Shown here: positions 8,195-11,500 of the stretch, one piece after another
Layout of the letters: the number at the start of each line of letters is the position of its first letter
Numbering within the stretch: position 1 is the first letter of the stretch
Source of the DNA: Eonycteris spelaea
Lineage: Eukaryota; Chordata; Mammalia; Chiroptera; Pteropodidae
Length of the DNA: 64,000 bases
Direction of reading: 5' to 3'
NCBI GenBank assembly: GCA_003508835.1
Contig: PUFA01000555.1
Location: 62,001-126,000 of the forward strand
Made by a program: the position numbers and the translations under genes
Notes under the pieces: model-generated
The model's database searches: none
What the model was told of the DNA's origin: nothing
Seen by the model: only the letters and a program-made list of their open reading frames with translations

Positions 8195-8503
8195 TTAATA
8201 TCTGCTTCTGCCTCCCCTCTATCAGATCGGCTTCCTCCACGGCCACCACCCCTTGGTGCTCCGCGGCTTGAACTGCTGTAGGAATCACGTGGAGGAGGGT
8301 ACCCCTTTCCATAGAAGGGGGAAGCCCTCTTTCTTGTCTGCCAACCCGATCACGACCACTTGAGTAGAGATCACTTCGGCTGCTTGAGTAACTGTCTCGA
8401 CTTCCACCATATCCGTCACGTGAGCTGCTGTAATCATCATAGCGACTGCTTCCACCATAAGATGGCGGGGGCCCTCGTGTAGGTGGAGCACTACGTGAGT
8501 TAC
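8195..8503 (-). CDS. RBMX: RBMX coding exon 9 (last coding exon, stop at 8195)
   Basis: Acceptor CCTGCAG precedes 8503. The exon encodes residues 289-391, rich in [23 protein letters not shown] text, and ends in TAA at 8197-8195. It is 309 nt where 311 are needed. One G is missing from a minus-strand G run at 8302-8305 (after MERG, residue 356) and one at 8214-8217 (in the RGGGR stretch near residues 385-387). The product text resumes correctly after each loss. Confidence 0.93.
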
Positions 8504-11500
8504 CTGCAGGGTCAATGGTCAGGTAATATGGCAACACTATAAATTGTATATATACAACATTTAATTTGAATTTACAGAATTCTTGTATTAAACGTTTACT
8601 TTCTCAACTGGGAGGTTTTAAACTCTGCCATTGCTGGCCATAACAGGGATTTGCTCATCTGCTGAGATATGGAAATGGATGGGTTTTAATGTTTGTTTGA
8701 CAAGACTGAAGACGGTGTGTATTTCAAGAGGATATTCCAGACAGCTTGTTATTTTATAGTAGACACTCAGCCACTTTCCAGTGATAAGTTGCAATTTTGA
8801 ACTGTAGACTTTCCTTCATATTGGAATGGTAAACATTTGATGATGTTAATAAAATTTTAAATTGTATTTTCACTGTTGGGGGAAAAACATAAGGCTGCCA
8901 ATTTAAGCAAGCAAAATCCCTCCAAAGCAAGCAAACAGCCTCAAAAAAAAAAAAACTTAGAACAAAAGCCCCTCAACAAAACTAGGAAAAGCCCAGCTGA
9001 TAGTTACCCCCTTAAAAGCAAGCAAACATCCCTTTAAAAGCAAGCACCACACAGCCTAATAAACTGGCTCATGAACCTAAAGGCTCAAGCTGGTGATATT
9101 CAAAGACACTCAACAGTATCTTACCATAGCTGTCATATGAATCCCTGTAGGAACCTCCACTTGGATGATCTGAATAGTCACGATCACGACCATAGCCATC
9201 TCTATCACTAAATTAAAGAGAAAACTTATCAGCTCCAGGGCATCAACTTTTTTACAGCAAGCTGTGGCAGCAAAGTCACATATATACCTATAGCCTCTTG
9301 ATGGATAGTCATCACGTGAACTGGAATGACCATAATCACGGTAAGTGTAATCTCTTGGTGGTGGTGCATAATCTCTTGTATCACGAGAGCTTGGGTAATC
9401 TCTGCTTGAATAGCTACAAAAGCAAAAGTAACTGGGTTTATATGCTTTTGATGAGTCTTCTTCCCCTTCAACCCAAATTATCGAGGCAAAAGCTACTACA
9501 TTTTTGTTACCTGTCTTTAGTAGAATATCCATCATCTCTTGGGACAAATAAACATCTCTACGAGAAGGCAAAGGTTCCCTTCGAGGTGGGCCTCCATAAC
9601 TATCTCTTCCACGGGATACAGGAGCTTAAAGAAAAACAATCATTTTTAAAATATACCCAAAGAGAAAACTTAATACGTGAACATACATACAGTCTGGTAA
9701 TGATTCAATGAAATTTCGTACTGTAAAATTTCCTGTTTATACCTAAATTCTTTTCAGTGCTCATTAACTGCAGTACTTAGATCACCTGCAGTCAAGTCAG
9801 TTTTAAGCAATTTTTTGGGATTCACCTTTCCACCTTTTGTTATGGTGGATTGTTAAAAATGGAATATTCATTTTACCTCTTCCTCCCATTCCACTGCTGC
9901 TGCGTACTGGTCCTGAAGGAGCAGATCTTTTAGGGGGAGGACCCCCACTTCGTGGTGTGGTCCTCTTTTTACTGGAAGTGGTCCCCTAGAAGAACTCATG
10001 TTAAAATTCATGGAATAGCCACCATCATCTACATTAGAATAGAAAACAAAAACATGTTAATACAAGAATCAAGAAAAGGCTATAAAAGTTCTTTGATCAA
10101 GAATGACCATTTCTACTTAGTTGGGGAATCTTTAGTTTTCACCTGTACAAAACTGAGCATATGGAAGCCCATAAGGACTAGTAAAATAAACCTAAAGAGT
10201 AGCCTCCAAGTTATGTCTAAGAAAAAGTTTCAGTTCCATATGCTCAAATATCTATGCATTATTTTCAAGTGTTTTTTTTTCCCTACAGAGTAAACTACCT
10301 AGATAAGGAAGAGCATACTATCATTTAAAAACACTGCCATGTAATTTAACTTAGGATGCCTTCTACGTTTTCAAGTCATTTTATCTTTGGTAGATGAGCC
10401 AGTGCTCAATTGAAAAAAAAATGGAGCCTTAAAGACTTAACCGAGGCACACGCTGGTGTGGGTATGCAGTTCCTAACTATGTTACACCAAGTCTGAGGTA
10501 GACTCAAGTCATTACCCATGTGCCCTCCACGTGAGGGAGGTCCCCTGGCTCCTCCACTTCCTCCTCTTCCACCTCTAAGGCCTCTTGGAGGGCCCCTGCT
10601 TCTTGGAGGTGGAGGTGGTCCACGTCTACCACTTTCAAATGACGGTTTAGTGGCTTGTTCTACTTTGATGGCTTTCCATCTAAGGACTAAATATCAAAAT
10701 GGTTAATTACAACATTTAAAAAGAACTTTCAGATCCACTTTTCACTGACATCAATATCCTTCAAAATAGCTATAGGTAAATTTTGCCCAATTGATCTAAG
10801 AAAAACACTACATCATTTTTCCATTTACTTAAAATGATTATTCAGTCTTTAAAAATTTACTAATGATCTGAACCGAACATAAGATGGATCCACTGCACCT
10901 CTTTTAAAAACAAGGCCAGTTATCAATTTATTAAAACTGACAAGTAAAAAAGCCAAGTTATTAAATCAGTTTATGGCTCCCAGATAAAATATACCACATA
11001 ATATTCTATCTGACTCTTGTTAATACAATCTGTAACTCTGCTATAACACAGGGTTATAAAAATTAACCAAGGGCCAGATTAAAGGGTCCTGGAAAGCTTT
11101 ACACTCAAAATAAAATAAAATTCAAGAGCTTCCCTAGACCAGACTTGGATAACATTATGCTCTACAAGCACTAGGAAAGACTACCCATCATGCCATCTCA
11201 CCTTTCCATTCATGTCTCTAGCTGCATCCTTAGCATCTGCTGGGCTTTCAAAGGTGACAAAAGCAAATCCTCTCGATTTGTTGGTTTCTCGATCTTTCAT
11301 CAAGAGTACTAAAAAAGTAGTTTTCAGGGGGGAAAAATGTTACTCTAGTTCGAATGAGATAACAAAAGTAAATCTTGAAAAAGAAAGCTCAGAACTTCTT
11401 AGAGGACAAACTACATCATTTCAGATGATCAACGCAATCAAATTCATCATAGCTTACATTTTAATTACAACAGCCCTGTATATACTTTCCGATAAACTCA

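Follow-up and report, generated by a model that had tools for sequence, protein, structure and literature searches.

Five single-base losses in the assembled RBMX gene of Eonycteris spelaea are very probably consensus errors

The RBMX gene in this assembly of the bat Eonycteris spelaea is interrupted by five single-base losses. We consider it very probable (about 0.96) that these are base-level errors in the assembly consensus, and that the animal itself carries an intact RBMX encoding a normal 391-residue hnRNP G. The consensus would have dropped one base at each of the five sites, probably as a result of error-prone long reads and imperfect polishing, and such errors are perhaps heavier on the male X chromosome through its half read depth. 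We base this judgement on the presence of the same class of event in genes where real loss is implausible, such as RBMXL2 and GJA1, and on the fact that real decay would bring many substitutions, yet few are seen.

The window, the whole 64,000-nucleotide stretch that was analysed, covers bases 62001-126000 of C545, a contig of 189,018 bases; the assembly comprises 3802 contigs and 1,962,903,590 bases in total. RBMX is located on the minus strand, with its coding exons within positions 8195-11610 of the window. Coding exon 1, with the start codon and the first half of the RRM, is found at 11502..11610 (109 bases), and exon 2, with the second half of the RRM, at 11202..11308 (107 bases). These two are of exact length, as are exon 6 (9288..9413, 126 bases) and exon 7 (9125..9207, 83 bases). 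Exons 3 (10516..10686, 171 bases), 4 (9877..10028, 152 bases) and 5 (9511..9624, 114 bases) are each one base short, and the eighth and last coding exon (8195..8503, 309 bases) is two bases short. The eight exons sum to 1171 bases as compared to 1176 for 391 codons and a stop, which bears out the exon lengths given in an earlier note on this DNA. No single open frame of about 391 codons was found for RBMX, frame 0 closing after 80 residues. All seven introns between the coding exons have GT and AG at their ends, and the splice sites are thus intact, as had been claimed.

The locus looks like the genuine RBMX, because ARHGEF6 is present on the same contig, SNORD61 lies in an intron, and a second RBMX was not found in the assembly. 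The RRM, translated from coding exons 1 and 2, is identical to the RBMX chain of PDB entry 2mks over 72 of 72 residues, and also to 2mb0. RBMX (hnRNP G) of the X chromosome is thus matched in its RRM, its many exons, its neighbour and its intronic snoRNA, with a CDS merely five bases short; the assembled bat sequence differs in its five breaks. PF08081, the RBM1CTR domain, is annotated (precomputed) in the relatives P0001-P0014. SNORD61 was found in the intron that separates coding exon 1 from exon 2, at 11385..11453 on the minus strand (RF00270, 83.1 bits against a gathering threshold of 43). Exons 1 and 2 of ARHGEF6, located with a human ARHGEF6 sequence as query, are at C545:21269-21432 and C545:19964-20059, on the minus strand as is RBMX and about 49 kb from it; the two genes adjoin each other in human. 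Four matches to the 5S rRNA family were also observed in the window, at 278-395 and 36257-36375 on the plus strand and at 49706-49824 and 60054-60167 on the minus strand, with scores ranging over the four from 50.6 to 86.1 bits. They fit the 5S-derived MEG SINEs that megabats are described to carry (PMC7547651).

The spliced exons were aligned to the relatives by dynamic programming, with shifts of one or two bases permitted. Against the 391-residue relative P0003 this gave five losses of one base each; there were no stops, and 375 residues out of 386 aligned were identical. Against P0006, also of 391 residues, there were likewise five one-base losses and no stops, with 370 of 386 identical. 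Fewer events were seen against P0001 (four, with 377 of 381 residues identical) and P0009 (three), since their C-termini differ and the alignment ends earlier. Following the coding strand, which is the minus strand of the window, the losses are at residue 78 in an A run of exon 3 (10673..10675), at residue 154 or 155 in a CCA repeat of exon 4 (9952..9960), at residue 208 in a C run of exon 5 (9541..9543), and at residues 355 and 385 in two G runs of the last coding exon (8302..8305 and 8214..8217). These placements agree with the coordinates in the earlier note, and its description of five losses, all of one base, four in homopolymers and one in the CCA repeat, holds in both the alignments and the sequence.

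The four homopolymer runs that remain are 3, 3, 4 and 4 bases long. Runs of at least three bases make up 15.7% of the CDS, and if losses were evenly spread the chance of finding at least four of the five in them would be about 0.003. The conserved frame is kept on either side of every break, as the earlier note had also reported, and neither the substitutions nor the stops that relaxed selection would leave in a unitary pseudogene were found. At most four changes were counted where decay would give 29 (Poisson P ~1e-8), the figure of 29 being an assumption and not a measured value. RBMX shares with unitary pseudogenes an interrupted reading frame, but it differs from them in the lack of substitutional decay and stops, in its intact splice sites, and in that unrelated genes are similarly broken.

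The same class of event was observed elsewhere in the assembly, in RBMXL2, connexins, ARHGEF6 and a POU3F4-like gene. GJA1, on the 14.1 Mb contig C28, has one -1 event in a G run, and 257 of 259 residues are identical to the human protein. ARHGEF6 exon 1, on the same contig as RBMX, has one -1 event in an A run; none was seen in exon 2. An intronless alignment of RBMXL2 (6.1 Mb contig C110) to the Pteropus medius RBMXL2 P0090 has three -1 events and one +1, 374 of 384 residues being identical; deletion of RBMXL2 is reported to block spermatogenesis in the mouse (PMC6345566).

A family search in which all 116 first-look candidates were scored gave 41 connexin matches, which were grouped by eye into about 26 loci. 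The 19 that were fetched were chosen by status, 10 seemingly split or partial and 9 seemingly whole, and were compared with paralogues from the same genome or with human GJA1 and GJB6. Events were found in 10 of the 19, GJA1 included. Over 13,239 bases of aligned coding sequence they number 20, a further one next to positions without letters being left out of the count; they were 13 of -1, 4 of -2 and 3 of +1. Nine of the ten split or partial-looking loci had events, as compared to one of the nine whole-looking. Nine of the 19 had none, but L048 is one of these, and with just 63 of 208 residues identical it may have an event that the alignment conceals. Some events in L039, L043 and L056 lie in poorly conserved loops and are less sure, since the references were paralogues or human proteins. 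Seven loci stand outside the count (C232, C299, C294, C340, C368, C93 and C176), and in-frame stops were seen in C340, C368 and C176. On contig C259, the connexins L045 (G000:C259:21600-22600) and L055 (G000:C259:954800-955900) are about 0.93 Mb apart and identical in 236 of 244 residues, the result of either a misassembly or a duplication of recent date. L046 (C259:974300-975300), a third connexin on this contig, is less similar, with 150 of 245 residues identical.

The POU3F4-like gene L059 (G000:C531:25800-27300) has ten events, +1 and -1 mixed, with an eleventh left out because it is next to positions without letters, and 305 of 350 aligned residues, such positions included, are identical to a reference sequence. 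A POU3F paralogue on C134 has no events against the same reference. The pattern in L059 is worse and more mixed than in RBMX, and it could be a decayed copy. Among the GPCRs (7tm_1), 144 of 149 rows were without an internal stop, but these represent the 147 top-scoring of 3146 candidates, a choice biased to whole genes. For this reason they were left out of the event counts, as were the TIR and NAP families, where the loss of TLR or NAP copies may be real. L061 (G000:C459:234900-236600) has a NAP-family domain that runs across three open frames of 195, 173 and 111 residues, which suggests frame breaks. L058 (G000:C269:1369300-1373500) and G000:C269:1412838-1413275 are TIR-domain genes on one strand about 40 kb apart that may be TLR7 and TLR8; the open frame holding one of them spans 962 residues, that of the other only 210.

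The explanation first offered for the breaks was an under-calling of homopolymers in a long-read or low-coverage assembly. The small indels in other conserved genes support this, but with events of -2 and +1 among them the error class is wider than one-base losses in homopolymers. It is also to be weighed that many genes in the assembly are whole, such as the nine connexins, the POU3F paralogue and most of the listed GPCRs, and real loss may lie behind some of the broken paralogues.

The X-type loci (RBMX, ARHGEF6 exons 1-2 and the POU3F4-like gene) together have 16 events in 2,466 aligned bases, as compared to 24 in 15,453 for the remaining loci that were counted (binomial P 4e-5), in a test that treats events as independent, on a non-random sample of loci, with aligned lengths for L044, L045, L055 and L059 that include positions without letters. 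With POU3F4 removed, the count for C545 is 6 events over 1,416 aligned bases of coding sequence, set against the same 24 in 15,453 (P 0.025). The X location of these loci is presumed from human gene order, and GJB1, which is X-linked in human, was not separated from the other connexins in the comparison. A half read depth on the male X may be a partial explanation of the local excess. As a sole cause it was rejected, since RBMY, of which a male likewise has a single copy, shows none in 1,203 bases. It is this, together with the presumed X location and the caveats on GJB1 and aligned lengths, that makes us keep half depth as a partial explanation.

The published assembly Espe.v1 of this species is described as coming from a single male, from PacBio reads only, assembled with Falcon 0.3.0 and polished with Quiver, with 1,966,861,576 bases in 4,470 contigs and 92.8% complete BUSCOs (PMC6177735), and assembly solely from PacBio reads is also given in PMC8075899. 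If this is the same assembly, the BUSCO score and the Quiver polishing are better than the event rates found here suggest. The breaks resemble the residual indel errors of long-read-only assemblies, being small, here mostly losses, often in homopolymers, and disrupting the frames of conserved genes. Early FALCON is reported to have introduced indels where haplotypes were merged (PMC5632298), which could act on autosomes but differs from the case of a single male X. If the donor was male, merging is an unlikely cause of the RBMX breaks, since males carry a single X haplotype, and we infer that low depth is the likelier cause.

A second intact RBMX, which the earlier note had named as counter-evidence, was not found in a DNA search of the whole assembly, in which common words were skipped and the RBMX locus itself was matched in pieces. 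Such a search could miss a short RBMX fragment, but would hardly miss an entire copy. The other RBMX-like matches, each with 71-80% identity, were RBMXL2 on C110 and an RBMY-like gene with separated exons on C672 (a 115,654-base contig). The latter aligns exon by exon to the Pteropus alecto protein P0047, which is deposited as hnRNP G and which we take to be RBMY. Summed over exons, there were no frame events in 401 aligned residues (1,203 bases), and the gene is whole except for the loss of one in-frame codon. Its presence points to a male donor animal. Among the 120 listed of 947 protein matches, the fruit-bat proteins noted were P0047 of Pteropus alecto and P0090 of Pteropus medius, neither of which we take to be RBMX.

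It is conceivable that the assembled locus arose by a very recent duplication or is a degenerate copy of RBMX, and that the working gene is absent from an assembly that may be incomplete, with its 3802 contigs as compared to the 4,470 published for Espe.v1 (PMC6177735). We regard this as very unlikely: the search of the whole genome found one RBMX alone, and the locus has kept its introns and splice sites, its intronic SNORD61 and ARHGEF6 about 49 kb off on the same strand, where ARHGEF6 shows a like loss. The idea that this animal or its lineage lost RBMX very recently and uses RBMXL2 or RBMY as a substitute appears even less likely. In a human cell line, each of these two is reported to be able to take the place of RBMX in the control of splicing (PMC11446547), and RBMY is whole here save for its one codon, but RBMXL2 is broken in the assembly in a similar way, females cannot rely on RBMY, and five distinct losses without accumulated substitutions or stops would be unexpected, the more so as the pattern is identical in unrelated genes. 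A particular form of this idea, in which RBMX was inactivated in the bat line and its task in splicing was taken over by RBMY in males and, in females, by an unassembled or unrecognised copy, seems to us hardly credible. The frameshifts could in principle also be bypassed by ribosomal slippage or RNA editing, a reading that the conserved frames flanking every break, its sole support, would allow. One message would then need five slips, and unrelated genes are similarly broken at other types of site, so that its probability is close to nil.

With the breaks read as consensus errors, nothing biologically unusual remains at the RBMX locus. Studies of gene loss, selection or annotation on this assembly would call RBMX, RBMXL2, GJA1, the POU3F4-like gene and several other connexins broken, and since such genes score as broken, losses in it that are based on frameshifts need read support.
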